A stretch of 25,246 nucleotides of DNA from Cytophagales bacterium. GTDB taxonomy: Bacteria > Bacteroidota > Bacteroidia > Cytophagales > Cyclobacteriaceae. Of this stretch, positions 2,347 to 21,847 are shown piece by piece. Both the position numbers and the translations under genes were made by a program. Positions within the stretch are counted from its first letter, which is position 1. Each line of letters opens with the position of its first letter. Where the stretch lies: contig DNTA01000084.1 of assembly GCA_003500135.1 (NCBI GenBank), forward strand, positions 1-25,246, read 5' to 3'. The notes under the pieces are model-generated. The model was not told the DNA's origin. It ran no database searches and saw nothing but the letters and a program-made list of their open reading frames with translations.

Positions 2347-3524
2347 GCGTTTTTCACACTTAAGCTTGCAATCTGTTTTACTCCATCTGAAATATTCACC
2401 TTATGGGCCAGTAAATCTATTCCAAAACGGTCTTTATATTGTTTTTTAAATTTTTCTGCTATTGCCTCACAGCGCTCCGTTTCGATAAGGTTGATGGTGC
2501 AACCTCCGAAGCCCCCACCCATCATGCGGCTGCCTAAAACCAAATCTTCCTGATGAGATAGCTCAACGAGAAAATCGAGTTCCTCACAGCTCACCTCGTA
2601 TCTTTTGCTCAATCCCTCATGTGAGGCATACAACAATTGGCCAAAAGTGTGGTAATCTTTGGATGCCAGGGCTTTGCCGGCCAGTTCCACCCTTCTGTTT
2701 TCGGAAGTAACGAAAACACAGCGTTGATATACTTTTTCGGAAAGGTCATTTTTATGCTGTTCAACCATTTCAGGGCTCACATCACGAAGGCTTTTAATCT
2801 CCGGTTTTATCGTCTGGAAGAATTCGACCCCTTCGTGGCATTCGGCCCTACGGACATTGTATTCAGAACTGCCCAGCTCATGCTTTACCTGGGTGTCAAA
2901 TAAAAGAATGGAGTATTGGTCGAAGTTCGTGTCAAAAAGGGTGTAGTCATATGATCGGCAATCGAGTTGTATGGCTTTATCGGCCTGGCCGTAGATATTG
3001 GCATATTGATCCATCAGGCCGCATTTCACACCCACGAAGTTATGTTCTGCCCACTGACCGATTTTAGCCATATCCAGCTTTTTGAGGTTTAGATCAAACA
3101 TCTGGTTCAGAGCGAAAACAAAGCCTCCTTCCAGCGCTGCGGATGAGGAAAGTCCGGCGCCTATTGGAATATCGCCGGAGAAAACGCAATTAAAGCCGAC
3201 TGACTTGCCGGTAAGCTCTTTAATGCGCTGCACCACTCCCAATATATAGTTTTGCCATACCTTTTCCGAAGGTGATAATCCGTCACTGCTATTAAAAACG
3301 AAGGCGTCGTCCAGATCGAGCGCATGAACTTCACACCGGTTATCCTCCCGTTGTGCCAGGGTAAAGTAGATTCTCCGGTCTATGGCAGCAGGCATCACAA
3401 AGCCCTCGTTATAATCGGTGTGCTCCCCGATCAGGTTGATCCTGCCCGGTGAAGCAATGATAACAGGCTCCTCGTCATAGAGCCCTGAAAAGTGATTCCG
3501 GATATTCTCTATTATCTTTTCCAT
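2343..3524 (-). CDS. galK: Galactokinase
   Basis: GalK phosphorylates galactose at C1 using ATP (GHMP kinase superfamily, cytoplasmic). The 393-residue protein carries the galactokinase signature [19 protein letters not shown] near residues 27-45. The GHMP ATP-binding motif [13 protein letters not shown] is at about 120-132, and the C-terminal [14 protein letters not shown] motif is at about 335-348. The start is an ATG giving [13 protein letters not shown], which is normal for the family. Its stop overlaps the galT start by 4 bp. lacZ lies 134 bp upstream on the same strand. That gap is AT-rich with no clear terminator, so lacZ-galK-galT may be one transcription unit, or galK may have its own promoter there. 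It is confidently identified. Confidence 0.97.
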
Positions 3525-3658
3525 ACGCTTAATTTAATAAACGTAATAATAACACTTAATTATTTGAAATCAAAGCGCCCCTTTAAAATGAGCTATTATC
3601 AAAACTCATAGACAAATATTAATCGATTAAGATGCTTTTGCTTTACCAGTCTTCATTA

Positions 3659-6865
<3,207 letters not shown>

Positions 6866-7410: not shown

Positions 7411-8493
7411 TTAATCTATTTCAATCGGTTTTCCGGGCATATCTTTTTCAAAATCCATACTTAATATATGCATGATCGTCGGCGCTATCTGGTTGGTATA
7501 AAGCTGTTGGTTTACCGATACTTCCCCTTTAGCTTTTATACCGGCACTGAAAGCCATGAACCAAACCTCACCGGCGTCCGGGATTTTAATTCCATGGCTT
7601 TTCCAGTTATCAAGAGGCTTGGTACCTCTGCCATGATCGGTGGTAAGCAAAAAGACTGTATTATCTTTATAAAACTTATCCTGTTGAGTAAACGCCCATA
7701 ATTCACGGATCATTCCATCAGTAGTGTGAGCTGAGTGCAAATAAGCATCATAATCGCCGTCGTGAGCAAAATCGTCGGTTTCTCCATAAGCGATGTACAC
7801 TACCTTCGGGCGATGCTTCTTCATGTACTCCAAAGCATAATGATGTGTGAAAGCATCGAGCCTGACCGAACTCCAGGGGCTGGGGATCTGCATTTGTAGT
7901 TCATTTAAAAACAGCTCTCTTTCAGTAAGGTCGTCCGCTTGTGCACATTCAAAACCAGCATTGACCGGCACTCCGGACCTTTCCTCATTTATGATGTAAG
8001 GGAATACATCCCAACTGCCAAATGCCGCAACTGAACCACTGTATTGCGGGTTTTGGTTGATCATTTCTAAAACAGTAACATTGGGGTTGGGCATCTTCTT
8101 ATTGCTGTTGATCCTTTTATCGTCGGCCTGTCCGGTCAAAATTTCGTTATAACCCGGATATGAAAACCACATTTGGTTAGTAAGATCCATTTTATTGCCC
8201 AGTTGACGGTTGCCATAGATCTGTCCTGTTTCACTTATATGGCTCCACACGAATGGCATTAACACCTTTCTGCGCTCTTCGGGTGCATCACGCCAGAATT
8301 CATTCACCAGGGCTGCCGAATCGCTTACATATTCCTTGTTGCCTACCAATAGCGAGTCGGCTCCTGTAAACAATTCCTGCCAACGGAAGCCATCCATTGT
8401 TATCAAAATGATCCTGGGCTGATCGGGTTTCTGGGCTTGGGTAAAATAGCTACAGATCAGCAGCAGTAATGATATGATAATTGTTTTTTTCAT
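7411..8493 (-). CDS. Exported alkaline-phosphatase-superfamily hydrolase (nucleotide pyrophosphatase/phosphodiesterase-like)
   Basis: This 360-residue protein begins with a signal peptide (MKKTIIISLLLLICSYFTQAQ) and so is periplasmic or secreted. The rest is a single alkaline-phosphatase-superfamily domain. It has the first metal aspartate in LITMDGF (Asp34) and a probable nucleophilic serine in FSYPGYNEILTG (Ser111). Further metal ligands are in GETDDFAHDGDYDAY (about 235-250) and TTDHGRG (about 290-296). Members of this superfamily hydrolyse phosphomonoesters, phosphodiesters, sulfates or phosphonates, and the specificity cannot be read from these motifs. It starts 10 bp after pbfA and is the last gene of the operon. 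This suggests it processes a phosphonate ester or a phosphorylated form of the imported substrate. The substrate assignment is inference. Confidence 0.85.
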   Translation of the reverse strand: MKKTIIISLLLLICSYFTQAQKPDQPRIILITMDGFRWQELFTGADSLLVGNKEYVSDSAALVNEFWRDAPEERRKVLMPFVWSHISETGQIYGNRQLGNKMDLTNQMWFSYPGYNEILTGQADDKRINSNKKMPNPNVTVLEMINQNPQYSGSVAAFGSWDVFPYIINEERSGVPVNAGFECAQADDLTERELFLNELQMQIPSPWSSVRLDAFTHHYALEYMKKHRPKVVYIAYGETDDFAHDGDYDAYLHSAHTTDGMIRELWAFTQQDKFYKDNTVFLLTTDHGRGTKPLDNWKSHGIKIPDAGEVWFMAFSAGIKAKGEVSVNQQLYTNQIAPTIMHILSMDFEKDMPGKPIEID

Positions 8494-8503
8494 CGTCTTA
8501 AAT

Positions 8504-9877
8504 TTAAGGTTTGAGTGCTTGTATACTTTTATCTATTATGTCAATGGCTGTTGCCAGTTCTTCACGATTGATGGTAAGGGCCGGTGATAGCTGGATCACA
8601 TTCCCTGCTGATATTTTAAAGCTTAGACCTTCGCCAAGGCATTGATACATCACTTTTTCTGCTTCATCCACTGCCTTTTCGCGAGTCTCCCGGTTTTTTA
8701 CCAGTTCAATACCCCAAAGAAGGCCTATGCCCCGAATATCACCGATCCAATAATGCCGGTCCTGAAGCTCTTTTAGCGATTCTTTCATCCATTGTTCATC
8801 CTGTGTTACCTTGTCCAGAATTTTTTCTTCCTCCAAAACTTCAAGAGTAGCGAGTGCAGCTACTGAACCAAGCGGGCTTTTTTCATAGGTGTAGTGCCCG
8901 AGTGAAATATCCCCGAATCGATTGTATTCATCACGTGCGATGATGGCAGCCATGGGCATTATGCCACCTCCCAACCCTTTTCCCAAACAAAGAATGTCGG
9001 GCTCTATGCCATAGTGTTCGAAGGCAAACATTTTACCTGTACGTCCGAAAGCTATCGGAATTTCATCCAGAATGAGCAATACACCATATTGATCACATAA
9101 GTGCCGCACTTTTTTCCAAAAATCATTGGATGGCACCTGTACATCCGTATTTCGAATGGTTTCTGCCAAAAAAGCTCCTATACCGGGTTCTTTAGAGAGA
9201 ACATAATCGATATATTCCAGACATTTTTGTTCATTATCCTGAAAAATACCCCGATAGGTTACCGGTGGAGGAACACGCTCTACACCAGGCATTAGTGGCC
9301 CCATGTGCAGTGTGAACTGTGCCTCACCCCCAACGCTGATCACATCAAGCGAGGCGCCGTGAAAGGAGTCCCAGAATGACAACACCTTAAACTTACCGGT
9401 AACCGCGCGTGCCAACTTGAGCGCAATTCCTATTGCCGAACTTCCATTGGGGGTGAATAGTACCCTTTTAAGATTTCCTGGGGCCAGTTGAGCAAGTTTT
9501 TCAGCTAGTTCAATGGCGGGTTCATTGGTAAATCGACGTGTGGAAAAGGGAAGTTTATACATCTGTTCTACAAGTCGTTCTACAACATGAGGGTGGCCAA
9601 AGCCAACCTGATGGGCATTGTTACCGTGAAAATCGAGATATGATTTGCCCGCCAGATTTTCCAGATAAGGCCCTTCACAACTCTCCAGCACATCGAGGCA
9701 GGGCGTTGATAATGACTGGTGCAAAAAGTACCTGGCATCTTTCTCCAGCAATTTCATGGTTGGCTCAGAAATGTGATCATTCCACCATTTCTGCCGTGCA
9801 GAGGTGATATTGATATCTCCTTCCGTACGATTGTTCAGAGCTATTCCCGGTGGATTACCGGGAGTTGTAGGGTCCAT
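8504..9877 (-). CDS. pbfA: (R)-1-hydroxy-2-aminoethylphosphonate ammonia-lyase, class III PLP fold
   Basis: PbfA enzymes have the fold of class III aminotransferases but eliminate ammonia from (R)-1-hydroxy-2-aminoethylphosphonate to give phosphonoacetaldehyde. The family-specific stretch ARQKWWNDHISEPTMKLL, followed by ARYFLHQSLSTPCLDVL and DFHGNNAHQVGFGHPHV, is present near the N terminus. The PLP lysine is in CLGKGLGGG (about residue 300), and the preceding ILDEIPIAFGRTG holds the cofactor-ring aspartate. The ATG at 9877 (457 residues) is preferred; an in-frame GTG at 9910 would add 11 residues. Either start overlaps the end of the upstream hydrolase gene (by 23 or 56 bp), so translation is probably coupled. 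There is no signal peptide, so it is a cytoplasmic enzyme placed between exported ones. An ordinary aminotransferase is the alternative, but the motifs and the phosphonate neighbours argue for PbfA. Confidence 0.88.
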   Translation of the reverse strand: MDPTTPGNPPGIALNNRTEGDINITSARQKWWNDHISEPTMKLLEKDARYFLHQSLSTPCLDVLESCEGPYLENLAGKSYLDFHGNNAHQVGFGHPHVVERLVEQMYKLPFSTRRFTNEPAIELAEKLAQLAPGNLKRVLFTPNGSSAIGIALKLARAVTGKFKVLSFWDSFHGASLDVISVGGEAQFTLHMGPLMPGVERVPPPVTYRGIFQDNEQKCLEYIDYVLSKEPGIGAFLAETIRNTDVQVPSNDFWKKVRHLCDQYGVLLILDEIPIAFGRTGKMFAFEHYGIEPDILCLGKGLGGGIMPMAAIIARDEYNRFGDISLGHYTYEKSPLGSVAALATLEVLEEEKILDKVTQDEQWMKESLKELQDRHYWIGDIRGIGLLWGIELVKNRETREKAVDEAEKVMYQCLGEGLSFKISAGNVIQLSPALTINREELATAIDIIDKSIQALKP

Positions 9878-11126
9878 ATGTTCCAATGATTTCTCTTTTT
9901 TCTGATTCACAATTCAGTACAAAAATGGAGTAGCGACCACCTTTTGGCGCCACCCTGACCACAATATGCCCTTGCTGGCTTTTGTATCGATCAAGCAAGC
10001 TGCCAATAACCTCGCGGTTGGCCTGAAGCATGGCCGTGGAAAATAAATCGCGGTCCCCGGGATACAGGTCTTCGGAAAGCAAGCGACGCAGCACATTGTT
10101 ATCAGGATGATCAGACGACCAGGTTTGCCCGATCCATACCCTTGGACGCAGCGTTCGCACATAAAATGTGTTTTGCGAGTCCCGGTTTCCATGATGATTC
10201 AGGGTTGCTACATCCACAGGGCCAATAACCGGAGCTACATGCGACTCCACCCGATCAAAATCGGAATGGCCAAATTGATCTACACCATTGATATCACCAC
10301 CGGTAAAATAATCAAACAGTCCGTAACTGAACTTCAAACAGGTGCTTAATGAGTTTTCCCCTGGATATTGACCGGACGAAAATAACGAATAGTAGCTTTC
10401 GCCCTCACCGGTCCAGATCTTTCCATTTACTGCTATGTTGCGGATGCAAAAATCACCATATTTTTCCGGCGAGCGCGTCAGCACCAGTTGATTATGCGTT
10501 CCAGGCGCCAGGGTTTCATAATGTAATCCTGATGTTCGCTTTTGATAATCGATGAATTTCCAGTAGTTCTGTAAAGTTCCTATCATTTGATAGGCATCAC
10601 CCTTAGTCAGTCGGGCTTGTATCTCATTATCTTTTAAATCCAGCGGGAAATCATCTCCTCTATCGATCATTGTGGCAATGGGTATCAAAGACCCTACTTC
10701 GGTAATCCCGGTCAATTGATAACCTCCTGATTGGTGTACATTCCTCATGCTGTCTATTTCACCAAAATGGTCATCGTGATAATGAGTGATGATGGCATAA
10801 TCAATCACCGAGGAACTATTATCAGGTGTAAACTGCCGGATATAATCTGCAATCCATTGGCCTGTTGTTTTGGTCCTGTTTGGCCAAAGCGGTGTGTTTC
10901 GTGAAGAAAGTGTTCTGGAATGTGTCTCAGACATGTCACCAGCATCGATCAGCATGGTAGTGCCATCGGGTAGTACCAAAAAGGTGGCATCACCACGCCC
11001 GGTGCTGATATGGTGAATATCAAAATAGCCTTCCTGCCATTTCGGTAATTGATCCCCTTCTGATTGTGCAAAAAGTGCAAAAGACCAAAAAACCGTGGCA
11101 CAAAGGAGCAAGATTTTATTAACCAT
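9855..11126 (-). CDS. Exported metallo-beta-lactamase-fold hydrolase (ComEC-type domain)
   Basis: This 423-residue protein has a signal peptide (MVNKILLLCATVFWSFALFAQ) and then a metallo-beta-lactamase fold resembling the soluble ComEC domain. The features are GRGDATFLVLPDGTTMLIDAGD (split around residues 43-64), the zinc motif THYHDDH at 114-120, a later YFTGGD, and LNHHGNRDS near the C-terminal third. The dinuclear metal site implies hydrolysis, probably of a phosphodiester or phosphonate ester, in the periplasm. Pneumococcal phosphorylcholine esterase (Pce) is a known fold relative that cleaves choline-phosphate decorations, and an analogous release of aminoalkylphosphonate is conceivable here (inference). 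Its start overlaps the end of the upstream phosphodiesterase-like gene by 8 bp, and its end overlaps pbfA. A true beta-lactamase role is unlikely given the ComEC-type motifs and context. Confidence 0.8.
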   Translation of the reverse strand: MVNKILLLCATVFWSFALFAQSEGDQLPKWQEGYFDIHHISTGRGDATFLVLPDGTTMLIDAGDMSETHSRTLSSRNTPLWPNRTKTTGQWIADYIRQFTPDNSSSVIDYAIITHYHDDHFGEIDSMRNVHQSGGYQLTGITEVGSLIPIATMIDRGDDFPLDLKDNEIQARLTKGDAYQMIGTLQNYWKFIDYQKRTSGLHYETLAPGTHNQLVLTRSPEKYGDFCIRNIAVNGKIWTGEGESYYSLFSSGQYPGENSLSTCLKFSYGLFDYFTGGDINGVDQFGHSDFDRVESHVAPVIGPVDVATLNHHGNRDSQNTFYVRTLRPRVWIGQTWSSDHPDNNVLRRLLSEDLYPGDRDLFSTAMLQANREVIGSLLDRYKSQQGHIVVRVAPKGGRYSIFVLNCESEKREIIGTYGPYNSR

Positions 11127-12774
11127 TTCCCCGGGTCGTTAAAATACTAGTAGGAATTATCTGTTTTGGGATATCTCGTGTTTGGTAGTACACATCGAGC
11201 CATGCACCTCCGCTTCCATTGAACCATTCCACTTTTAAGGGGTGTAATCCCTTATCTAACTTGATATATCCGGATTTCTCCTGAACTCCATGGTCGCCAT
11301 CATTATCCACCACCAACTGATCGCCGATCCAAAGCTTACTACCATCGTCAGAACGCGTGTAAAACATGTAAGTATCTTCTTTCAATACATTGAGTGTGGT
11401 ACTAAAAACCACCACTGTATTTTCTTTGATTTCATGCTGAACCTCTTCCGAAGTGATTTCAAAGCACTTACCTTTGGCATCGGGCGATAATGATTTCGTA
11501 TCGGGTATTTTACTCAGTCCTTCCAGGTAAAAAAGGGAGTAGGCCACCGCTGGCGAAATACTTTTGGTTTTAATCCGAAAATAGGCTTCAGCTACTATGC
11601 TTTTCATGCTTTCCCCATCGAAAACAGCGCTTTTTATTATTGTATTTGAATCCACTTCAAAAGGGGCGGAATACAAATTTGACGTATAGTTCGGCGCTGA
11701 ACCATCTGTTGTATATCTTAATTCACCTTTTTCATTGGGGTTTTGAATTTCCACTTTAGCTTTCTCATTAAACAAACCGCCAGCGCGACGATTGAAAGCT
11801 TCCCCGGGCAATATTTTGGGCTTTTGCCAACGACGGGTAACCGGAAACCGACCATTCCAATTTTGCCCTTCAAATGCTGTCACTACAGGTTTTCCTATGC
11901 AGGCTCCAGGCAATTCTACTCCGAGCGCATAAGCCACTGTGGCTGCATTGTCGTATTGATAAACCGGTGATATGATCTCATATCCTTTTTTAATGCCTTT
12001 TCCGCAAACAATAAACGGGATCTCAATTTCGTCGAGCGTCTCACCGCCATGTCCATATCCTAAACCTCCATGGTCTGAGCTGATAATGACCAATGTTTTA
12101 TCTAAAATACCGGCCTGGGAAATGCTTTCCATTACCTCTCCCAATAGGGTGTCTGCCTTTTCTACCGATTGATAATAGTCTTCTGTACCATGACCATACT
12201 CATGTCCGGTATGATCTACATGATCAAAATGGATAAAAGTGAAAAGTGGTTGTTTTTCAAGAATATACTTCCCGGCTGTTTTTGCCGTTTCATCCTCGTT
12301 CTTCGGATTGATATCATAATCCACTGCCTTTTTTTCAAATAACCTACCAAACCCACCCCAATGATAGATCGCTCCTATTTCCGCCTCAGGATATTGACGA
12401 TCGATCAGGTTGAAAATAGTAGGAAACAGAAAATCCTCATCTTGTGTAACCGGCGGCAAGATCAGGTTATTGCGCTCCCATGCATTTGAGGTGATGCCAT
12501 GTTGCTCTGGCCCTGCGCCCATTATCATAGACGACCAGTTGGAACTGGAACTCGTGGGCAACACCGCCCTTGCATGAAATGTATGGCTTCCTTCTTTTAT
12601 TAACCGGTCAAAATTAGGCGTGCTGGAGTTTTGCAACCCATCGGGACTTAAACCGTCAAAACCAATAACTACCACGTGTTGAAAACGTGGTCTTTTATCG
12701 ACCTGTTTTGAAGCACAAGACCATAGGGAAAAACCCCCTATGGTCATGATTAGGATTAAATGAAAGGTTTTCAT
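11119..12774 (-). CDS. Alkaline-phosphatase-superfamily lipoprotein with chitobiase C-type and PA14 domains
   Basis: The 551-residue protein starts with a lipoprotein signal peptide (MKTFHLIL...FSLWSC, lipid Cys20). The ATG at 12774 is chosen over an in-frame ATG 48 bases upstream because it places the signal peptide first and removes an overlap with susD. Residues about 30-330 form a type I phosphodiesterase/nucleotide-pyrophosphatase domain. It has VVVIGFDGLS, a Ser/Thr-rich nucleophile region VLPTSSSSNWSSMIMG with the GPEQHGI motif after it, HFDHVDHTGHEYGHG, and SSDHGGLGYGHGG. It is followed by a chitobiase C-terminal-like Ig domain (about 340-400, LRYTTDGSAPN) and a PA14 domain (about 420-545, FYTRSDDGSKLWIGDQLVVDN). 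These two accessory domains usually bind or present carbohydrate, suggesting a glycan- or lipid-linked substrate at the cell surface. It follows susD by 13 bp. Confidence 0.87.
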   Translation of the reverse strand: MKTFHLILIMTIGGFSLWSCASKQVDKRPRFQHVVVIGFDGLSPDGLQNSSTPNFDRLIKEGSHTFHARAVLPTSSSSNWSSMIMGAGPEQHGITSNAWERNNLILPPVTQDEDFLFPTIFNLIDRQYPEAEIGAIYHWGGFGRLFEKKAVDYDINPKNEDETAKTAGKYILEKQPLFTFIHFDHVDHTGHEYGHGTEDYYQSVEKADTLLGEVMESISQAGILDKTLVIISSDHGGLGYGHGGETLDEIEIPFIVCGKGIKKGYEIISPVYQYDNAATVAYALGVELPGACIGKPVVTAFEGQNWNGRFPVTRRWQKPKILPGEAFNRRAGGLFNEKAKVEIQNPNEKGELRYTTDGSAPNYTSNLYSAPFEVDSNTIIKSAVFDGESMKSIVAEAYFRIKTKSISPAVAYSLFYLEGLSKIPDTKSLSPDAKGKCFEITSEEVQHEIKENTVVVFSTTLNVLKEDTYMFYTRSDDGSKLWIGDQLVVDNDGDHGVQEKSGYIKLDKGLHPLKVEWFNGSGGAWLDVYYQTRDIPKQIIPTSILTTRGNG

Positions 12775-12787
12775 TGCGACTGGTTGC

Positions 12788-14239
12788 TTATTGCTCCCAC
12801 CATACTTTGGTAGTAATTTCATCTCCTCCCATTCTGCTTACTGCAGTATTATAATTATCCGCATTCAGCGCCTGTTCTTCGCTTGGGTATTCAAAACGAC
12901 TCGGATAGGCGCTATAAAAAGCATCGGGGCCCGGTTCGATGGTACTTGGAAAGCCCGTTCTTTTAAACTCTATAAAACCCTGATAATCGGTATAGAATAA
13001 AGCGATATATTTCTGTGTAATGATCGTTTCCAAATCATCATCATAGGCAACACCATTTCTGGATAAATAATCCGCTGGCATATCCACCCCCCAATAGTCA
13101 AAGTTGGCCTGGATTCCATCTTCATAATGTGCTTCGGGATCGGAGCTGATCCATCCTCTTTGTGCGGCTTCGGCAAAAATGAAAGCTACTTCCGAATATA
13201 TCATCAACCGGGCGTCGTTGCTGTTGGGCTGTAGATAGAAATAATTGATATTAAATTTCGACAAAAAGGCATCACCCCCTTTGTATTCATACGCCGGACC
13301 ATCCACAATTCCATTTTGCATACCCTGGATCTCCGGAGTGCCATTTTCAACCGAATTCGCCGTCGGGTCGGCAAAGAATTCCAATCTTGGATCGTCGAAG
13401 CTTTGTAAGATCCCAACAAAGTGTTCTGATATTCGATACTCATTAAATGAACCTACACGGTAGACCGATTCTTCTGTAATCGGGTGTGCATCGGGAATGG
13501 ATGGCAAAAACTGCAAGGTGGCATTGTCGGCATTTGATGTCATTACAGGGTACTGTGACGGATTATCAAAAATCTCATTGATCGTACTGCTTGCCAGATT
13601 TTCATCTGCTTCACTCAATCGCATGGCTAGCCTCAGGCGTAATGAGTTGGCAAATTTTTGCCAAAGGGAAATGTCTCCATCAAAAATCAGGTCACCTTTC
13701 AATGCCGTTTCAGCGTTCGCTAAAATGTTACTCGCTTCTTTAAGGTCGGCGATCATTCCGGCATAAATATTTTGCTGCTCGTCATAAATAGGTGTATAAT
13801 TACCTTCGTCAGCTTTGGCAACTTCAGCGTAAGGTACATCGCCCCACATATCGGTGAGGATATGGAATAGCCAGACCTGCATTACCTTCGAAACACCCTC
13901 ATAACTTGCAATAGATTGCTCAGAAGCTATTCTTTCCAATTCTTTGGCATCCCTAAGGCGTAGGTAGAAATTGTTCCATACACCTGACTGATCGCCCCAG
14001 TCAAATAGATCAAAAGAGGTAAATACGATCCTTGCGCCATATTGCCCCATCAGGTTTCCTTCACTCCAGGCATAGCCTACCGCACCACGGATGGCATTTC
14101 GCTGCAGTTGGGTAAGCAAGATCTCCGGGTTATTATTAATATTCAAAGCTACATCCGGATTGTCATTACTCACATTAAAATCATCGCATGACACCATAAA
14201 TATGAGTGTCAGGGAGAGTATGCTTAACATCTTTTTCAT
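12788..14239 (-). CDS. SusD/RagB-family outer-membrane lipoprotein
   Basis: The 483-residue protein has a lipoprotein signal peptide (MKKMLSILSLTLIFMVSC, Cys18) and the helical TPR-like body of the SusD superfamily, most like the SusD-like_2 (PF12771) branch. N-terminal NDNPDVALNINNNPEILLTQ, IWMWGDVPY-like DMWGDVPYAE near residue 125, and the C-terminal FIEFKRTGFP (about 430) are typical landmarks. SusD proteins are surface-exposed lids that bind the substrate and deliver it to the SusC channel. It follows susC by 31 bp and is certainly its partner. The PF12771 branch is often found outside polysaccharide loci and handles diverse substrates. Here the neighbours point to a phosphonate-bearing ligand, which is inference from context only. 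Confidence 0.93.
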   Translation of the reverse strand: MKKMLSILSLTLIFMVSCDDFNVSNDNPDVALNINNNPEILLTQLQRNAIRGAVGYAWSEGNLMGQYGARIVFTSFDLFDWGDQSGVWNNFYLRLRDAKELERIASEQSIASYEGVSKVMQVWLFHILTDMWGDVPYAEVAKADEGNYTPIYDEQQNIYAGMIADLKEASNILANAETALKGDLIFDGDISLWQKFANSLRLRLAMRLSEADENLASSTINEIFDNPSQYPVMTSNADNATLQFLPSIPDAHPITEESVYRVGSFNEYRISEHFVGILQSFDDPRLEFFADPTANSVENGTPEIQGMQNGIVDGPAYEYKGGDAFLSKFNINYFYLQPNSNDARLMIYSEVAFIFAEAAQRGWISSDPEAHYEDGIQANFDYWGVDMPADYLSRNGVAYDDDLETIITQKYIALFYTDYQGFIEFKRTGFPSTIEPGPDAFYSAYPSRFEYPSEEQALNADNYNTAVSRMGGDEITTKVWWEQ

Positions 14240-14270
14240 TTTTTTATCGTCAAAGAGTTAAATACTAGGT

Positions 14271-17200
14271 TTAAAATTCGATGTTAACCGCAAAACCAAG
14301 GCTTCTTGTAGTAGGTACGGTGGCATTTTCCACACCCGGTACATATGAACCCCCTCCAAAAGAAAGTAACTCGGGATCACCATGGTTAAACTCTTTGGTC
14401 CACAACCAGAGATTGGTTCCAATAAGAGAGACCGATATCGACTTCATGTTCCAGTCCTTCATCAATTTGCTGGGGAATGAATAGGTAAGTTTAGCTTCAC
14501 GAAGCTTTATAAAAGTGGCATCATATATACCTTCCGATTCATTTTGTCTGCGATAACGGTTGTTGTGATAGGCATTGGCAGGAACGATTACATCATTTTC
14601 CGCATAAGAACCATCAGCAAGCTGTTTTACACCGTCACCAATAACTCCATCGGTTCTGGTATCCCCGTTAGAATCGGTATAGCTCAGACCGGAATCACTA
14701 ATACCAGGATGTGCACCGCCAAATTCCGGCGCTCTACCCCAGAGTGTTTCCACAACATTTCCCGAAGTAGCAGCGATCAGCCTTGTTCTCGATAACAGCT
14801 CACCACCCTGACGCCAGTCGAATAGGAAGTTAAGCGAGAGGTTCCGGTAGGAAATGGTGTTGTTCCATCCCAGCATGAAATCGGGATTGAAATTACCCAG
14901 TTTGCGCAAAGTATTATCTTGTTGCACCAGGCCTTCATTAAAGATCACCTCTCCAAAGTACTCGCTGTTGGGATCGTCAACCCTTCTGAGGCCGGTTCCC
15001 CACATATCACCAATTGAACCACCTTTTTCAGCTACAAGGGTTATACCATTGCCTCCATAGACATAACGATCCAGGCCATCCATCAACTCAAGTATTTCAT
15101 TTCGATTTAGTGTGAAATTGAAATTGGTGTTCCATCGAAGTCCATTGGAAAGATCAAGTGGTGTAGCGCTTAACATCATTTCAATACCATAGTTTCTAAT
15201 CTCACCGGCATTGATCACCCTGGAGGCCCATCCGGAGGTAACCGGAAGGTCAATGCCCAGGATTTGGTTTTCTGAAATGGTGTTATAATATGTTACATCA
15301 AGACCTATTCTGTTGCTTAAAAACCGAACATCGGCGCCTATTTCGAAGGAGGTTTGTATTTCGGGCTTCAAATCAACATTGGGCAATACATATGATGGAT
15401 TGGCCGTGGGGTTGGACCCTACAGGATTTCCAAGTTGATAAAACTGCTGGAGCCGAAACGGATCGGTGTCGTTACCTACTTGTGCCCAGCTGGTTCGCAA
15501 CTTGGCAAATGAAACGGGGCCGTTATCGCTCAGACCTATCAAATCGGATACCACAAAGCTAAGCGAAGCCGAAGGATAGAAGTAGCTGTTGTTTTGCGAC
15601 GGCAAAGTGGATGACCAGTCGTTTCGGGCTGTTAAATCGAGATAGATCATATTCTGCCAACCCAACTGGGCAAATCCATATAATGAATTGATCTGCTTCT
15701 CTGGTCTGTCTATCGTTTGTACCAGTGGACCATCGGCATTGTTAAACGAATAAACACCTGGTATCAGTAATTTATTCGCCATTAAAGCATTGAAATGGTT
15801 TTTTTGTACCATCCGGTTTCCTCCAAAGTTGAGGTTGACCGACCATATCCCGTTTATTTGCTTTGTGTAATTTAACAGAAAATCAATATTGGTTTCTGCA
15901 AAATTCACCTTGTCTTCACGATACTGACCGTTGGGGAAACGCTGTGTTGAGTATGCTCTTTTAATGAAACGATACTCTGAAAAGAAGTCACGACCGGCAC
16001 GTAGCATCAGGCTCAGGTCGTCGGTAAAATTATAGGTAGCGGATATATTTCCAATCACACGGTCTTTCGAAAGTCCGTTGGTATTTTCATACATCGTAAA
16101 GTACGGGTTATCGTGATAATTATAGTTGTAGTTAAACTGTTGGAAACCTTCAAGGCCTCTTTGCCAATAGTCACGTAATCCTCTTACATCTACCTGCTGG
16201 CCCCACCAGATAAACAGGTACATTACCGATTCCGTACCATAGCCGTTAACATGCCGGTTATCAGATTCCGAATTGATGTAGTTGATATTTGATGAAACTT
16301 TTAACTTGTCAGAGATCTGATAATCCCCGGATAGAGAAACCGTATTTCTTCTTAAGTCGGTATTGGGCAGGATTCCTTCATTATTCAGGTTAGTAAAACT
16401 CACACGGAAGTTTCCATTATCATTCGCTCCATAGAATGAAATATTACTCATTATGGTTCGACCGGTTTCCATGAAGTTCTCAACCGGATCACCCGGATCT
16501 ATAAATGGTGTTTCAATAATGTTACCTCTTCTTTCCAGGTCTACACCTGAAGGGCCTAAGATAAAATCCAGGCCGTGTACATCACCGCCTCGCAGACCAT
16601 TAGTGGTCGGTGAATCATGTTGGGCACGAAGTGTACCGTCCATTCTGGGACCCCATGATTCATCCACTCCGTCGAATGTTCCATTACCATATCCGTCGAC
16701 GAACTGAAAGTCAAAGTTTTTACCCTGGCCATAAACACGTTGATATTCCGGTCCTTTAAGCATATTCTCAAAAGTTACTTTGGTACCTACCGAAACACCA
16801 AAACCAGCTTTGCCTTTACCAGATTTTGTTGTGATAATTATGGCGCCATTAGCTGCTCGGGAACCATATAATGCAGTGGCATTCGCTCCTTTAAGCACCG
16901 AAATGGATTCTACATCATCCGGATTGATCTCCGCTGCTCCATTTCCATAATCGATGTTCATGTTACTGGCGCCTCCCAGGGTATTGGTTCGCGTGTCAGT
17001 ATTATTATTAATAGGTATCCCGTCAACCACAAAAAGCGGTTGGTTATTTCCGGCCATTGAAGAGTAGCCCCGGATAACAACGGAGGAGGATTGGCCCGGG
17101 CCGGTACCATTGGTTACCACCTGCACTCCTGCGGCCCTTCCCGACAGAGTGCTAACCATATTGGTTGAAGTGGACTGCGCTACATCTTCGCCTTCTACCT

Positions 17201-17567
17201 GCTGCACTGAGTAACCAAGGGATTTTTCATCCCTGGCAATATTCAATGCCGTAACAACAATCTCATCGAGTTCCTGCGAGGCAGGTTGAAGTGTAATTTC
17301 TGCATAACTTCTTCCGGCTACATTAACGTTTTTGGTTTCATATCCCAGAAATGATACCACCAGTGTTTCATCTCCGTTCGTTAGTTCGATAGCAAAATTC
17401 CCATCGTAATCCGTTACAACCCCGGAAGTACTTCCCTCAATCATCACAGTGGCGCCGGGAAGTGAAGCGCTGTTTTCATCCACCACTTTACCTGAAAAGG
17501 TGGTTTGCGCGTAAGAAGCGGTGCCCCATAGAAAAACTATAAGGGCAAGTAGTTTAGGTTTTTTCAT
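14271..17567 (-). CDS. SusC/RagA-family TonB-dependent outer-membrane transporter
   Basis: This 1098-residue TonB-dependent transporter has a signal peptide (MKKPKLLALIVFLWGTASYAQ) and a CarboxypepD_reg-like N-terminal extension (about 24-98, VVDENSASLPGATV). A TonB-box-like DEIVVTA is at about 101-107, the plug domain at about 112-235 contains the SusC landmarks GRAAGVQV, VVIRGYSS and PLFVVDGIPI, and a long beta-barrel runs to the final aromatic-rich GFAVNIEF. The ATG at 17567 is preferred to an upstream in-frame GTG at 17600 because it begins the signal peptide cleanly. It imports ligands too large or scarce for porins across the outer membrane with SusD as lid. It is the first gene of the operon containing pbfA, which is the reason to suspect a phosphonate-containing substrate. 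The AAAAAGTTTACAAAT sequence lies directly before the start codon. Confidence 0.95.
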   Translation of the reverse strand: MKKPKLLALIVFLWGTASYAQTTFSGKVVDENSASLPGATVMIEGSTSGVVTDYDGNFAIELTNGDETLVVSFLGYETKNVNVAGRSYAEITLQPASQELDEIVVTALNIARDEKSLGYSVQQVEGEDVAQSTSTNMVSTLSGRAAGVQVVTNGTGPGQSSSVVIRGYSSMAGNNQPLFVVDGIPINNNTDTRTNTLGGASNMNIDYGNGAAEINPDDVESISVLKGANATALYGSRAANGAIIITTKSGKGKAGFGVSVGTKVTFENMLKGPEYQRVYGQGKNFDFQFVDGYGNGTFDGVDESWGPRMDGTLRAQHDSPTTNGLRGGDVHGLDFILGPSGVDLERRGNIIETPFIDPGDPVENFMETGRTIMSNISFYGANDNGNFRVSFTNLNNEGILPNTDLRRNTVSLSGDYQISDKLKVSSNINYINSESDNRHVNGYGTESVMYLFIWWGQQVDVRGLRDYWQRGLEGFQQFNYNYNYHDNPYFTMYENTNGLSKDRVIGNISATYNFTDDLSLMLRAGRDFFSEYRFIKRAYSTQRFPNGQYREDKVNFAETNIDFLLNYTKQINGIWSVNLNFGGNRMVQKNHFNALMANKLLIPGVYSFNNADGPLVQTIDRPEKQINSLYGFAQLGWQNMIYLDLTARNDWSSTLPSQNNSYFYPSASLSFVVSDLIGLSDNGPVSFAKLRTSWAQVGNDTDPFRLQQFYQLGNPVGSNPTANPSYVLPNVDLKPEIQTSFEIGADVRFLSNRIGLDVTYYNTISENQILGIDLPVTSGWASRVINAGEIRNYGIEMMLSATPLDLSNGLRWNTNFNFTLNRNEILELMDGLDRYVYGGNGITLVAEKGGSIGDMWGTGLRRVDDPNSEYFGEVIFNEGLVQQDNTLRKLGNFNPDFMLGWNNTISYRNLSLNFLFDWRQGGELLSRTRLIAATSGNVVETLWGRAPEFGGAHPGISDSGLSYTDSNGDTRTDGVIGDGVKQLADGSYAENDVIVPANAYHNNRYRRQNESEGIYDATFIKLREAKLTYSFPSKLMKDWNMKSISVSLIGTNLWLWTKEFNHGDPELLSFGGGSYVPGVENATVPTTRSLGFAVNIEF

Positions 17568-17582
17568 ATTTGTAAACTTTTT
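17566..17582. promoter_or_regulatory. Left arm of a 17-bp inverted repeat upstream of susC (candidate operator)
   Basis: ATATTTGTAAACTTTTT here is the exact reverse complement of 17691-17707. On the minus strand it reads AAAAAGTTTACAAATAT and abuts the susC ATG. The core AAGTTTACAA recurs ahead of the DUF5690 operon. A regulator-binding role is inferred from position and repetition. Confidence 0.5.
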
Positions 17583-17690
17583 GTGGGTTAGGACTATCAC
17601 AAATTTGAAGAACTAAATTGAATATATTCACCTATATGGGTTAAATGAATGATATTTTTATGTTGCCCCTATTAAGAAATGGTTAATTTT

Positions 17691-17707
17691 AAAAAGTTTA
17701 CAAATAT
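17691..17707. promoter_or_regulatory. Right arm of the 17-bp inverted repeat between susC and the XRE-cupin gene
   Basis: AAAAAGTTTACAAATAT is an exact inverted copy of 17566-17582, with 108 bp between the arms. It lies 139 bp before the regulator start and 124 bp before susC, in the shared divergent control region. The spacing would suit a repressor or activator contacting two sites. Confidence 0.5.
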
Positions 17708-17845
17708 TAAATATTGCCGAAATTAAATTTTGTTGTATATATGCTGTAATTTAAGGCTACAGTGTACGTTTTTACCTGTATTTTGACACATAAAAAAGAC
17801 ATGGAAAGCATAAAATGATTTATATTGTGTTCAACTTTTTAACTT

Positions 17846-18412
17846 ATGGAAGATTATCTACTCGGTATCGGAAAGCACATCAAGACAATACGCAAAGAAA
17901 AAGGTAAAACCATCAGCGAAACTGCGAATGGCGCCGATGTAAGCAGTGGACTGATTTCCAGAATAGAAAATGGCCGTACAATTCCCTCACTGCCGGTATT
18001 ACTTAAAATAATTGAATCGCTGGATATTGAAGTCAGCGATTTCTTCAGGGAAATGCCACATGCCAATGGCTCCGGATTTATCGTTTCCCGAAAAGAGGAT
18101 AATGAGATCATAGAAAAGGAAGACGAAGCAATAGGATTTGTGTACAAGCACATTTTCGGCAAACAATTGTCATCATTGGGCTTCGACTCTGTTTTGCTGG
18201 AGGTACAGCCCGGTTCAAAACGCAACAAGGTGACTACCGACGCTTATGAATTTAAATATGTACTTACCGGCGAGTGTCATTATATTATTGGTGATGATGA
18301 AGTATTGTTGCATGAAGGTGATTCTATCTTTTTTGATGGCAGAATACCACATGTTCCTGTGAACAGAGGTTCCACAACCTCCAGAATGCTGGTCCTGTAT
18401 TTTTATGTGTAA
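17846..18412 (+). CDS. XRE-family transcriptional regulator with C-terminal cupin sensor domain
   Basis: The 188-residue protein has an N-terminal Cro/C1-type helix-turn-helix (about 8-66: IRKEKGKTISETA, DVSSGLISRIENGRTIPSLP). A linker and a cupin barrel follow (about 110-186: VQPGSKRNKVTTDAYEFKYVLTGE, LHEGDSIFFDGRIPHVPVN). XRE-cupin proteins are local regulators whose cupin pocket binds a small ligand, often a pathway substrate. It is divergent from susC across 278 bp and convergent with the phosphonoacetaldehyde-hydrolase-like gene, whose stop is only 6 bp away. This central position makes it the natural regulator of both phosphonate operons, perhaps sensing AEP, hydroxy-AEP or phosphonoacetaldehyde (inference). 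The cupin lacks the usual paired HxH metal ligands in its first motif, so it may bind ligand without metal. Confidence 0.9.
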   Translation: MEDYLLGIGKHIKTIRKEKGKTISETANGADVSSGLISRIENGRTIPSLPVLLKIIESLDIEVSDFFREMPHANGSGFIVSRKEDNEIIEKEDEAIGFVYKHIFGKQLSSLGFDSVLLEVQPGSKRNKVTTDAYEFKYVLTGECHYIIGDDEVLLHEGDSIFFDGRIPHVPVNRGSTTSRMLVLYFYV

Positions 18413-18418
18413 ATACTT

Positions 18419-19108
18419 CTAAACCTCAAGGATTTGAATAAGGTCTTTCAGTGTATTGACAATGTAAGTCGGTTGTGCACTTTCAAGCTGACTGTAGGTG
18501 TGCGCTCCTGTAGTAACCCCGACAGTGATCCCACACTTAGCATTTTTACCTTCTTGAATGTCGATTATGGAATCACCAGCTTTTAATACAAATTCAGGAT
18601 TATCCACATGAGTGGCTTTCATAGCTTCAAGGATCATATCCGGTCCGGGTCTTCCGGAGCTAACATCATCTGCTGTAATCAACACGTCATATTCCTTTCC
18701 TTGTCGCCACTTCATTTTATTGAGTAAAAGGTTGGCTGTTTGCTTATCATAACCGGTATTCAATGCTATTTTCACCCCTGCTTTCCTCAAATGCTTTATA
18801 AGTTCATGAACACCGTCAAATGGTTTTATATTTAGTTTTTGATAGGCCTCTTCAAGCATCTGCCGGAATTCCTTAAATATTTTACCGGCGATCATTTCTT
18901 TCTCTTCTCCCCTTCCTTTTACCTGGTTTTGCAAGATATCCTTTATGGCCTGGTATTTTTCCTTTCCCGCGCCCTGCTCCAATACATAGTCGAGTGGCGC
19001 CTCAAAACCACGCTGTTTGATCGCTTTTTGTAATGTTTTGTACACTACATTGCCTTCATTTATGGTTGTACCGGCTATATCAAATACCGCTAATTGGATG
19101 TTAGTCAT
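18419..19108 (-). CDS. Phosphonoacetaldehyde hydrolase-like HAD enzyme (TIGR03351 type)
   Basis: This 229-residue cytoplasmic HAD-superfamily protein is of the phosphonatase-like group closest to PhnX. PhnX cleaves the C-P bond of phosphonoacetaldehyde to acetaldehyde and phosphate. It has the modified nucleophile motif FDIAGTT (Asp10) shared with PhnX. In the cap region, QGAGKEKYQAI places Lys49 where PhnX has its Schiff-base lysine. DDVSSGRPGPDMI and GDSIIDIQEGKNA complete the HAD site, and the VTTGAH stretch is typical of TIGR03351 proteins. It starts 2 bp after the oxidase gene, in line with the oxidase and pbfA both supplying its aldehyde. The Schiff-base lysine and neighbours favour true phosphonatase activity; a close analogue of phosphonoacetaldehyde as substrate remains possible. 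Confidence 0.85.
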   Translation of the reverse strand: MTNIQLAVFDIAGTTINEGNVVYKTLQKAIKQRGFEAPLDYVLEQGAGKEKYQAIKDILQNQVKGRGEEKEMIAGKIFKEFRQMLEEAYQKLNIKPFDGVHELIKHLRKAGVKIALNTGYDKQTANLLLNKMKWRQGKEYDVLITADDVSSGRPGPDMILEAMKATHVDNPEFVLKAGDSIIDIQEGKNAKCGITVGVTTGAHTYSQLESAQPTYIVNTLKDLIQILEV

Positions 19109-19110
19109 TT

Positions 19111-20265
19111 TTATTGATTCAATATGTGGTCGATATGTGCTTTTGAAAAACCGGCGCTACCCGTCATACCTTTACCTCCTATTCCGGTTACAATATGTAT
19201 GTGTTGATCTATAGTTTTTTGAAATATATCTTTTTGGCTACACTGTACATATACACCGTACCATCGATATTTAATGCGATCGTCGGGCAGTTCGTAAATA
19301 CGTCTGGCCTCCTTCATGATAAATTCGTCAATATCCATATCAAGATCAAACCCCAGTTCATCCTGTTTTGTTGGCGTTGCATAGTGATGCGAATCGCCAA
19401 TGATCACAGAACCATCCAGTGCCTGTTTAAACAAAATATGCACCCCCCATTTCTTTACCTGGCTGTCCACATCTTCTTTTTCATTTATCAATCGATATGA
19501 CGGGCACTCTCTGAAAGATTCGTACCTCCTCACTGATAATCCGGAGAGTACCGCTCCTTTGATATTGAAATTTCGCTGCGGTACGGTTTGCATCATCTGT
19601 AACTTAACCACTTCAAGGTCGCTTTGCGCAAAAATTTCGGGAAAGAGCGTATCCAGATCACTTCCATTACAAATGATCACTTTATTAGCTGTAAAATTTT
19701 TATTACCGGCACATGCTACCTCAACTTTTCCGCCATTCACATCACAGCTAAGTGCCAGGGTACCAAAATAAATGTCGACACCCTTTTCTGCCAGATAATC
19801 CTGTAACCTGTTAATCATCACTTCGGGCTCAATAATAAGCTCTTCGGGAAAATACAAACCAGCCCGAACATAATCTGACTTCAAACCGGGGTATTGTTTC
19901 AGGCATTCCTGACGGGACAAAATCCTGGAAGCATAGTTCTCCTGTTTGTTGATTTCGGAAAGTTCCACCAAAAGGGTTTCTTCTTCCTCGTCAGATGCAA
20001 AATAGATTGTGCCTTCATTGCGAATGGTGAGATCAATTTGGGATTGCAATTCATTATAAATTCGTAAGCTTTCACGACCGTATTGTTGCCATTTCCGATC
20101 CATGCCTGAAGGAACTACCTGACCAAAGTTGCGTACCGTTGCCCCCTGGGGCCGGCGGCCTTTCTCAATCAAAGCCACTTTTAGGCCACGCTTCATCGCA
20201 TGATAGGCATGAAAAGTACCCAAAACACCGCCTCCAATCACCAAACAATCGAAATGATTATTCAT
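19111..20265 (-). CDS. FAD-dependent aminophosphonate oxidoreductase (TIGR03364 type)
   Basis: The roughly 384-residue DAO-family flavoprotein starts with a Rossmann FAD motif (CLVIGGGVLG, residues about 7-16). It carries the group-specific stretches ATVRNFGQVVPSGM, WGVHILFKQALDGSVIIGDSHHYA and the C-terminal GIGGKGMTGSAG. The TIGR03364 clade occurs beside phosphonatase-like HAD genes, exactly as here. Studied recurrent FAD enzymes of phosphonate clusters oxidise N-methyl-AEP, and some oxidise AEP, directly to phosphonoacetaldehyde. The ATG at 20265 overlaps the transporter stop by 8 bp; another ATG four codons upstream is possible. No PhnW transaminase is present, so this enzyme is the likely entry point for AEP-type compounds. 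The exact amine substrate is not determinable from sequence. Confidence 0.88.
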   Translation of the reverse strand: MNNHFDCLVIGGGVLGTFHAYHAMKRGLKVALIEKGRRPQGATVRNFGQVVPSGMDRKWQQYGRESLRIYNELQSQIDLTIRNEGTIYFASDEEEETLLVELSEINKQENYASRILSRQECLKQYPGLKSDYVRAGLYFPEELIIEPEVMINRLQDYLAEKGVDIYFGTLALSCDVNGGKVEVACAGNKNFTANKVIICNGSDLDTLFPEIFAQSDLEVVKLQMMQTVPQRNFNIKGAVLSGLSVRRYESFRECPSYRLINEKEDVDSQVKKWGVHILFKQALDGSVIIGDSHHYATPTKQDELGFDLDMDIDEFIMKEARRIYELPDDRIKYRWYGVYVQCSQKDIFQKTIDQHIHIVTGIGGKGMTGSAGFSKAHIDHILNQ

Positions 20266-21547
20266 AAGCCAACTCACTTTTTTGTGTTGATATATAATAT
20301 TTTGCCCTGTACTTTTTACGGAAATAAAAATAGGAAAATAGCGTTACTGCAATGCCAAATACCGACATGACATAAGTACTGTTCATAAAAAAACGTAACC
20401 ATGACATTTCACTTTGACCAAAATTTTTGTACAACAATATAGCCATACTACCCAGGTAACCGAAAGCATCGGCAATGTATATTAGAAATCCGGCATTGCC
20501 ACCAGACCTGAATGTTGCGATCATACGGTCGAAAAACAAGCCATTGAAGGGCACATAACATACATACAACCCAAAACCGACCAGGATCATCCAGGCTACG
20601 GGCGAGATGAGATGCATTTGAAATAGTTGAGTACCAAGCCCGACAGCGACAGCGCCCAGTAGCAGTAAAATGTGGTAGGACATAAACGCTTTGAAATTGT
20701 CTTTGATAAGGACGAATAAACCAATTAACAGCAATACAAAAATTGCCACTGGCACCTCAGCATAAGTGTAAATGGCTGCATTGCCTTCAAATCCAACAGC
20801 ATCCCAAATCTCCCGGGAGAAATTGTCACGGAAATCACGCATGGCCGTAAGAAAAGTATAAAATCCTACGATAATGATTAAGGGAAACAAAAATTCCGAA
20901 AGTACTTTTTTTCGTGCTGCGGCATTCATAGGTGTTCTCTCCGTCTTCAATGAAATATCTGAAGCCGAAGGTGGCGGCATTTTTTCCAGCATCCATGCAA
21001 AAAGCAGGAAAGGTAAGATAAACACCAGCCCGGTAATAAATGGCATCCAGAACTGATTTACTCCCAGTTGGGTCATCACCAGCAATCCTACAGATTTTAC
21101 CGCTCCGCTTGACACTATAAAACTTGAACACAGGAACACACCTAACAATTCAGTGAATCGTCGTCCTTCGAGATAGGAAAAAACCACTCCCCAGACCAAG
21201 CCTAAAGGCAGTCCATTTAAGAACATAAATACCGTGTTGTAGGGAGCAGGTGTAAGGGCAAACAATAAAAGGAACAGTTCAGCGCTAAAGATCATACCCA
21301 ATAGGTAAGCTAACCTGTTTCTGTTTTTCATGGCCGCTATGATGCGAATCCCCAAAAATTTGGACAGCATATACCCCAAGACCTGTGCAATAATAAGAAT
21401 GATTTTGTAGTCCACACCAAAATAAAATAATTCATCATAAGTCGCTACTGTAAACGGCTTCCTGTAAGCATACATGCAAAAGTAGGCGCCAAATGACGCC
21501 ACGATCCCATAAATGAGCACTTTGATATGTGGAGAATTAATTCGCAA
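20258..21547 (-). CDS. DUF5690/MFS-type membrane transporter, candidate phosphonate importer
   Basis: The 429-residue polytopic protein has about 11-12 hydrophobic helices and the MFS-like N-terminal pattern FGAYFCMYAYRKPFTVATY seen in DUF5690 proteins, with a central basic loop around residues 195-215. It is the first gene of an operon with an aminophosphonate oxidase and a phosphonatase-like enzyme, so import of an aminophosphonate across the inner membrane is the obvious hypothesis. Organophosphate:phosphate antiporters (GlpT/UhpT) of the same superfamily share the YRKPF-type motif, which supports a phosphorus-compound substrate. The start is TTG: an in-frame stop lies two codons before the ATT preceding it, and the next ATG (codon 25) would cut into the first helix. 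A candidate operator lies about 13 bp upstream. Confidence 0.85.
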   Translation of the reverse strand: MRINSPHIKVLIYGIVASFGAYFCMYAYRKPFTVATYDELFYFGVDYKIILIIAQVLGYMLSKFLGIRIIAAMKNRNRLAYLLGMIFSAELFLLLFALTPAPYNTVFMFLNGLPLGLVWGVVFSYLEGRRFTELLGVFLCSSFIVSSGAVKSVGLLVMTQLGVNQFWMPFITGLVFILPFLLFAWMLEKMPPPSASDISLKTERTPMNAAARKKVLSEFLFPLIIIVGFYTFLTAMRDFRDNFSREIWDAVGFEGNAAIYTYAEVPVAIFVLLLIGLFVLIKDNFKAFMSYHILLLLGAVAVGLGTQLFQMHLISPVAWMILVGFGLYVCYVPFNGLFFDRMIATFRSGGNAGFLIYIADAFGYLGSMAILLYKNFGQSEMSWLRFFMNSTYVMSVFGIAVTLFSYFYFRKKYRAKYYISTQKSELAYE

Positions 21548-21847
21548 AATTTTTTACTTATTGTAAACTTATAAGCACAATTCTCCAATATTTTTTACAA
21601 ATAGTTAACTTTTTCAGATTATGATTTGGTTATGAATAGTTTACTTTATACGGGTCGCTTTAACATATCCTTTACAGAAGTTGCAGATGGACCATATTCG
21701 GCCCGGAGCACAGATATTTTATCGTTCGGATACTTTAAATTCAAACTACGATTAGATTTTTAATCTATCCATAAAGCATCGGTAACATCTGGTTCCCATG
21801 TGGGACCTATATTTAAAATCGGAAATGCTAAACTAAACAACACACAC
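21548..21847. promoter_or_regulatory. Divergent control region between the DUF5690 operon and the phoD-like gene
   Basis: This 300-bp AT-rich stretch has no gene and should hold promoters for both directions. Its transporter-proximal end carries the AAGTTTACAA-like sites. A small perfect stem TAGATT/AATCTA with a TTT loop lies at 21753-21767. No clear TAnnTTTG element or Pho box was recognised on either strand. Confidence 0.5.
21561..21612. promoter_or_regulatory. Cluster of AAGTTTACAA-like sites upstream of the DUF5690 operon
   Basis: TTGTAAACTT (21561-21570) is the exact reverse complement of the AAGTTTACAA core found twice upstream of susC. TTTACAAATA (21594-21603) matches the other end of the same 17-mer, and AGTTAACTTTTT follows at once. 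Another AGTTTAC lies at 21638-21644. The sites start about 14 bp before the transporter TTG codon. Confidence 0.45.

Follow-up and report, generated by a model that had tools for sequence, protein, structure and literature searches.

A 25,246-nucleotide contig of a Cytophagales bacterium (DNTA01000084.1 of assembly GCA_003500135.1; this whole stretch is called the window below) carries two neighboring operons in which a SusC/SusD pair, three exported hydrolases, and enzymes of aminophosphonate degradation lie together. We propose, with a probability of about 0.65, that this locus scavenges ester-linked aminophosphonates: SusCD would import them, esterases would release the aminophosphonate, a DUF5690 protein would transport it, and PbfD, PbfA, and a PhnX-like enzyme would break it down. 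The proposal was built on family-level gene identities, a recurrent gene run, conserved catalytic-type residues, a structure model with the fold of the major facilitator superfamily (MFS), and a common sequence motif. From these we infer the substrate, the location, the order of the steps, and the link between a regulator and its sites.

To our knowledge, the known pathways of phosphonate catabolism start from free small phosphonates. The locus supplies candidates for the genes of the initial steps that these pathways lack (capture, cleavage of the ester, and transport across the inner membrane), and the question of bound-phosphonate use becomes testable in the cultured genera that bear it. 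Its bearers include Zobellia, Maribacter, Saonia, and Flavobacterium. Passages of published work describe phosphonates as built into lipids and glycans (PMC8316502), and most of the phosphonate-making capacity of bacteria is said in another paper to serve the tailoring of cell surfaces (PMC6697681).

Every gene that an earlier note on this DNA had named is open over the coordinates given here. Operon A lies on the minus strand in the order SusC-SusD-PDE-MBL-PbfA-AP360, with adjacent genes overlapping or separated by at most 31 bp. SusC (14271..17600) is a SusC/RagA TonB-linked outer-membrane transporter (TIGR04056, 637 bits; cut-off, 368), for which the ATG at 17567 is a likelier start than the listed GTG at 17600. 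SusD (12788..14239) is a SusD-like lipoprotein (PF12771, 307 bits) whose lipobox is followed by CDD. PDE (11119..12822) is an exported type I phosphodiesterase of the NPP type with Fn3-like and PA14 domains (PF01663, PF13290/PF13287, PF07691), and MBL (9855..11126) is an exported protein of the metallo-beta-lactamase fold with an HxHxDH motif and a weak likeness to the phosphorylcholine esterase Pce/CbpE. PbfA (8504..9910) matched NF049939 with 722 bits (cut-off, 525). The last gene, AP360 (7411..8493), encodes an exported small hydrolase of the alkaline phosphatase superfamily (PF01676/PF00884) with a signal peptide; the export signals of PDE, MBL, and AP360 were all judged by eye.

Operon B, also on the minus strand, begins with a DUF5690 membrane protein of the MFS fold, a candidate inner-membrane carrier of aminophosphonates (20258..21547). 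It is followed by a PbfD-type FAD aminophosphonate oxidase (19111..20277; TIGR03364, 399 bits; cut-off, 285) and a PhnX-like hydrolase of the haloacid dehalogenase superfamily, a candidate phosphonoacetaldehyde hydrolase (18419..19108; TIGR03351, 232 bits; cut-off, 219). Between the operons, on the plus strand and divergent from SusC, sits the gene of a helix-turn-helix (HTH)-cupin regulator (17846..18412; PF01381 and PF07883). The earlier note had placed SusCD, pbfA, and three exported hydrolases in one operon, and a transporter, an aminophosphonate oxidase, and a phosphonatase-like enzyme in a second. Coordinates, Pfam and NCBIfam matches, and the signals seen by eye bear out the former arrangement; the latter holds as well, with the oxidase and the phosphonatase-like enzyme above their NCBIfam cut-offs.

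Recurrence of the gene set around PbfA and PbfD

PbfA was surveyed in 296 genomes of the phylum and scored above the cut-off in 12, the window's included. Thirteen PbfA regions were taken from 12 other genomes (the region of G179 holds a split PbfA gene under the cut-off), and 6 of the 13 contained PDE. At an E value of 1e-40, PDE was found in 10 of the 296 genomes, 8 of which had PbfA as well, on the same contig in 7 of those. With the window genome excluded, PbfA was present in 7/9 PDE-bearing genomes, as opposed to 11/295 genomes overall (Fisher p 3e-10).

The named PbfA loci comprised the best 80 of 319. PDE was found in 40 of them, SusC in 34, SusD in 30, PbfD in 46, the PhnX-like gene in 47, DUF5690 in 41, AP360 in 17, and MBL in 8. 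Twenty-nine of the 80 had SusC, SusD, and PbfA in a single same-strand run (gaps of at most 350 bases), and all 29 runs included a phosphoesterase-type hydrolase, counted as PDE, MBL, AP360, purple-acid-phosphatase-like, propeller-PF04185, or PHP, with the last three kinds assigned from one to three scanned cluster members. Because the PHP assignment lies under the cut-offs and is the sole hydrolase in 2 runs, 27 is a safer count than 29. This association fits an ester-linked phosphonate. None of the 20 next-best class III aminotransferases (not PbfA) had these genes within the stretch of up to ~8 kb examined; the difference in SusCD-PbfA runs (29/80 versus 0/20) gave a p value of 6e-4 for loci that are not independent.

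An independent start was made from the PbfD family, which was present in 30 of 345 genomes of the class, 29 of them outside the window. As controls we used 40 stretches from 20 of these genomes, each placed at a distance of ~80 to 600 kb, and nearness rather than a shared operon was counted. SusD lay within ~9 kb of PbfD in 11/29 cases, compared to 1/40 controls, and SusC in 15/29, compared to 6/40. PDE-like genes (8/29), AP360 (6/29), the HTH-cupin gene (8/29), DUF5690 (18/29), and the PhnX-like gene (18/29) were each found near PbfD and in none of the 40 controls. The propeller-PF04185 protein was not enriched around PbfD (3/29 versus 1/40, p 0.3). The 29 genomes span 14 families, and the SusD-bearing ones span 5. 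The earlier note had named conserved synteny in several Bacteroidota as the support to look for; judging from these sequence comparisons, the view that the genes form one recurrent system across several Bacteroidota families is well supported.

Predicted enzymes, carrier, and regulator

In the proposed mechanism, SusCD would bind and, energized by TonB, import a molecule to which 2-aminoethylphosphonate (AEP) or 1-hydroxy-AEP (HAEP) is bound as an ester. PDE, MBL, and AP360 would free the aminophosphonate on the outer side of the inner membrane, probably within the periplasm, and DUF5690 would move it across that membrane. Phosphonoacetaldehyde would then arise in two ways, by oxidation of AEP or N-methyl-AEP through PbfD and by deamination of R-HAEP through PbfA, and the PhnX-like enzyme would split it into acetaldehyde and phosphate.

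Residues D56, S92, D200, H204, D250, H251, and H258 of PDE were invariant in 11/11 aligned rows and fit, by analogy, what we take to be the metal site of NPP-type enzymes. Solved NPP/ENPP structures are among the structure-database matches of PDE. A PA14 and a chitobiase-C-terminal-like domain are present in the protein as well; such domains are often tied to carbohydrate, and their presence is a hint of a carbohydrate ligand. In MBL, the HxHxDH metal motif reads THYHDDH in 9/9 rows. Its best solved relative was 1wra (Pce/CbpE), a weak match with an E value of 7.7e-6 from the single sequence and 9.8e-7 from a profile (31 bits). The core motif is common to both proteins. Pce/CbpE is an esterase that acts on the phosphorylcholine of teichoic acid. 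AEP being the phosphonate counterpart of phosphoethanolamine, an enzyme that cleaves headgroup esters would be plausible here, and by analogy MBL is a putative one acting on AEP esters. MBL had 2,828 homologues at an E value of 1e-3, and AP360 at least 8,000. Among the best 120 of each, the named MBL homologues were called ComEC/Rec2 family, MBL fold, beta-lactamase superfamily hydrolase, or hypothetical, whereas the AP360 names included phosphoglyceromutase, sulfatase-like, and alkaline phosphatase family, among others.

Acidic residues after the cysteine of a lipoprotein are a surface signal. By a crude pattern, a lipobox-like cysteine was found in 29/30 SusD rows, with two or more acidic residues among the next six in 25/29, and in 23/40 PDE rows, with such acidic residues in 14/23. 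No lipobox-like cysteine was found in 17 AP360 rows or in 8 MBL rows. By this count the signal is common in SusD and mixed in PDE. PDE, MBL, and AP360, which the earlier note had taken for surface hydrolases, would act outside the inner membrane, probably in the periplasm.

The two enzymes yielding phosphonoacetaldehyde, PbfA and PbfD, are both present above their family cut-offs. Lys51 of the PhnX-like protein did not vary over 10 rows, and in the alignment solved phosphonoacetaldehyde hydrolases have at this position the lysine of their GLLK stretch, presumably the Schiff-base residue of PhnX. PhnW, phosphoenolpyruvate mutase, and PhnJ were not found above cut-off in the window's own genome (94% complete), so that the organism looks, from its gene content, like a phosphonate consumer on a PhnW-free route of the type that a passage by Zangelmi et al. 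describes for PbfD2 (PMC10590968). The structure predicted for DUF5690 shows an MFS fold, as in SLC37/OPA-type carriers; a sequence search of the PDB gave no match for DUF5690 or AP360. Arg29 of DUF5690, invariant in 10 rows, stands opposite Arg28 of G6PT and Arg45 of GlpT, judged solely from the starts of the aligned ranges. We take these two arginines to bind phosphate.

Two exact copies of an operator-like motif, TATTTGTAAAC, lie by the beginning of operon A: one next to the likely SusC start (17567..17577, plus strand) and an inverted, distal one (17696..17706, minus strand). The sole further match in the window at one mismatch or fewer lies before operon B (21593..21603, minus strand; one mismatch). 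A motif of this type occurs ahead of SusC in 13 loci, and in relatives the copies lie ~145 and ~19 bases upstream of SusC. An HTH-cupin homologue was present in 37 of the 80 PbfA loci. The regulator would act on these predicted TATTTGTAAAC-type sites and through them control both operons.

An ester-bound aminophosphonate is the most likely substrate, and its carrier could be a lipid, a glycan, or a small diester. According to passages of the cited papers, R-HAEP was first isolated from a polysaccharide of Acanthamoeba (PMC8154272) and HAEP was reported from a membrane lipid of Bdellovibrio stolpii (PMC8154272, PMC12366243); glycan and lipid carriers are therefore both possible. The earlier note had gone further and suggested capture of a large phosphonate carrier. 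Of this, the company of hydrolases is supported in kind, since all of the SusCD-PbfA runs contain a phosphoesterase-type one. We hold only tentatively the fuller version, in which the locus would represent a Bacteroidota class devoted to phosphonoglycans or phosphonolipids, with the whole carrier molecule entering through SusCD, PDE and the Pce-like MBL serving as dedicated exported esterases, and DUF5690 being a new aminophosphonate carrier. In this version, the stripping of AEP/HAEP by the esterases would be a step ahead of the known aminophosphonate pathways.

SusC/SusD relatives and competing explanations

Several known kinds of system resemble the locus. Polysaccharide utilization loci likewise combine a SusC/SusD pair with exported hydrolases within an operon, and PDE has accessory domains of the carbohydrate-associated kind; in contrast to such loci, the Pfam matches of the 10 genes of the locus included no glycoside hydrolase or polysaccharide lyase family. 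The PbfA/PbfD-PhnX clusters (PMC8154272, PMC10590968) share the cytoplasmic chemistry, which appears here in a PhnW-free version. The passages on them describe no SusCD or exported esterases, both of which are present here; "TonB" and "Bacteroidetes" do not occur in the main texts of these two papers, and a passage of the second counts the FCB group among the bearers of PbfD homologues.

The closest precedent is the work of Lidbury et al. (2020; PMC8115612), a passage of which reports that enzymes of phosphonate degradation are found together with low-phosphate PusCD complexes. In these phosphate utilization systems (PUS) of Flavobacterium, as here, a SusCD pair is accompanied by phosphoesterases instead of carbohydrate-active enzymes, and the three hydrolases of operon A place the window's SusCD beside phosphoesterases in the same way. 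The link between SusCD and phosphonate genes is hence not new in itself, although in the open literature that one sentence was the only mention of SusCD-type pairs joined with phosphonate-degrading enzymes that we came upon. What differs from the PusCD passages is that the aminophosphonate lyase PbfA and a PA14-bearing phosphodiesterase lie inside the SusCD run, that the regulator alongside is of the HTH-cupin kind and a neighboring operon encodes a PbfD oxidase, and that the set occurs in Flavobacteriaceae, Dyadobacter, and other Bacteroidota. As far as the passages found in the open literature go, the PbfA-PDE-SusCD operon, its spread, and its motif have no description, in searches whose queries never paired PbfA directly with SusC or SusD. 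It is possible that the present locus is identical with one of the PusCD forms of Lidbury et al.

The most serious rival, which we nevertheless consider unlikely, is that the locus belongs to the PusCD kind and serves phosphate shortage in general. Such a system would take up ordinary phosphodiesters, such as lipid headgroups and nucleic acids, and the phosphonate genes would be adjacent on account of phosphorus hunger. It has in its favor six PusCD complexes, which according to the passage cited above were expressed and have phosphoesterases and phosphonate-degrading enzymes encoded beside them, and also the company kept by the kin of the window's SusC. This SusC is 77% identical to that of the Saonia flava PbfA locus, and the solved relatives of its SusD are SusD/RagB proteins. 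In 345 unselected genomes, with two candidates scored per genome, its best matches had 50% (G583) and 47% (G049) identity, and we examined the contexts of 15 of the 19 top-ranking places other than the window's own. The two nearest SusC lie in PbfD-type aminophosphonate loci with no PbfA in the stretch examined. One of these loci holds PhnX-like, DUF5690, PbfD, SusC, SusD, AP360, PhoX, and GDPD-like genes, and the other PbfD, HTH-cupin, SusC, SusD, AP360, and two metallophosphoesterases. One further context combined SusCD with AP360. In 7 of the 15, SusCD was found with a 455-residue-type protein and a PF12850-type metallophosphoesterase (one of them by a Pfam scan, the other six linked to it by BLAST). 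The remaining contexts contained another metallophosphoesterase in one case, a weak match to one in a second, and no nameable genes in three.

Eight of the 15 contexts, with a ninth by weak match, thus pair SusCD with metallophosphoesterases where no phosphonate gene was seen in the 14 to 16 kb examined, and the SusCD lineage may therefore serve phosphoesters generally. On this sequence evidence phosphoesters appear to be the common theme of the whole lineage, the aminophosphonate loci being one part of it, and a strict reading under which it would serve phosphonates exclusively is one that the comparisons go against. The earlier note had asked whether the nearest SusCD pairs are tied to unrelated substrates, and the answer is mixed: the two nearest speak for the phosphonate link, and the lower-ranked ones speak against it. 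What speaks against a general phosphodiester system is that PbfA lies inside the SusCD run, beyond mere nearness, in 29 of the 80 loci, that PDE is rare and tracks PbfA, and that the adjoining regulator is of the HTH-cupin kind and both operons bear copies of one motif.

A quick SusC tree, built without mixture and with long branches present, placed the phosphonate-linked rows in at least three groups. It comprised 51 rows, 16 of 67 having been dropped (five outside the runs with PbfA, ten that were duplicated or nearly so, and the single SusC on a long branch, from L101); the SusC of L050 was kept as phosphonate-linked despite an opposite-strand gene between it and PbfA. A single origin of the phosphonate-linked SusC was disfavored (approximately unbiased test, p 0.0207; 3 changes) in a test that is not neutral, since the 29 comparison rows were picked as kin of the window's SusC. 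The seven contexts with the PF12850-type metallophosphoesterase (L170 and L172 to L177) represent a second recurrent set, in which the protein of ~450 residues beside SusCD has no Pfam match (one scanned); this set is possibly an undescribed phosphoester uptake locus.

We regard it as improbable that the cargo of SusCD is a small free aminophosphonate or a phosphonate peptide and that the hydrolases serve another purpose. SusCD-like systems are not confined to glycans, RagAB handling peptides, and in Dyadobacter 17 of 20 loci lack SusCD in the PbfA run and yet 18 of 20 have PDE, which indicates that esterase and importer can part. Free AEP, however, should pass porins, and every SusCD run contained a phosphoesterase-type hydrolase. 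Hardly credible at all is a chance insertion of an ordinary polysaccharide locus beside phosphonate genes: galT, galK, and a lacZ-type beta-galactosidase do lie in a row on the same strand (1297-6850, minus) 560 bp beyond AP360, but at an E value of 1e-8 lacZ and galT were found in 0/80 PbfA loci and galK once, weakly, and the SusCD-PbfA runs exceed those of the aminotransferase controls.

Several observations weigh against the scavenging of ester-linked aminophosphonates, in addition to the lower-ranked SusC contexts. SusC and SusD were present in just 2 of the 13 other PbfA regions from the even draw of genomes, in 51 of the 80 PbfA loci the run contains no SusCD (the contig is short for some of these), and in many loci of Chitinophagaceae PbfA is accompanied by no other gene of the window. 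In the PbfD survey, the SusD and SusC queries were taken from PbfA loci, which biases the counts toward their kin. The PhnX-like protein scored 121 bits against PhnX proper (TIGR01422), under the cut-off of 220. Finally, the match of MBL to Pce is weak, and the structure model of MBL was poor (pLDDT 49) and was not used.

Flanking genes and variant loci

LacZ, GalT, and GalK were rejected as parts of the locus on the counts given above. A PhoD-type alkaline phosphatase gene (21800-23584), divergent from operon B, was likewise rejected, with no match in the 80 PbfA loci.

Among the PbfD loci, L226, L228, and L229 have PbfD with a lone SusC-like transporter (a weak BLAST match) and a phosphodiesterase-like gene of the alkaline phosphatase superfamily, and no SusCD. 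PbfA-like genes with none of the window's other genes nearby were found in L062 to L064, L080, L085, L086, and further loci from Chitinophagaceae and metagenome-assembled genomes of Bacteroidota, where their function may differ. In L040 and L041, two tandem PDE-like genes adjoin PbfA. L050, from Kriegella aquimaris, the species from which a passage of PMC8316502 names the AepP transporter, holds PDE, PbfA, PhnA (phosphonoacetate hydrolase, 474 bits; cut-off, 408), an aldehyde dehydrogenase, an FAD oxidase, and a gene that clusters with PhnW of L104. This locus has an ending of the PhnY-PhnA type in place of PhnX.

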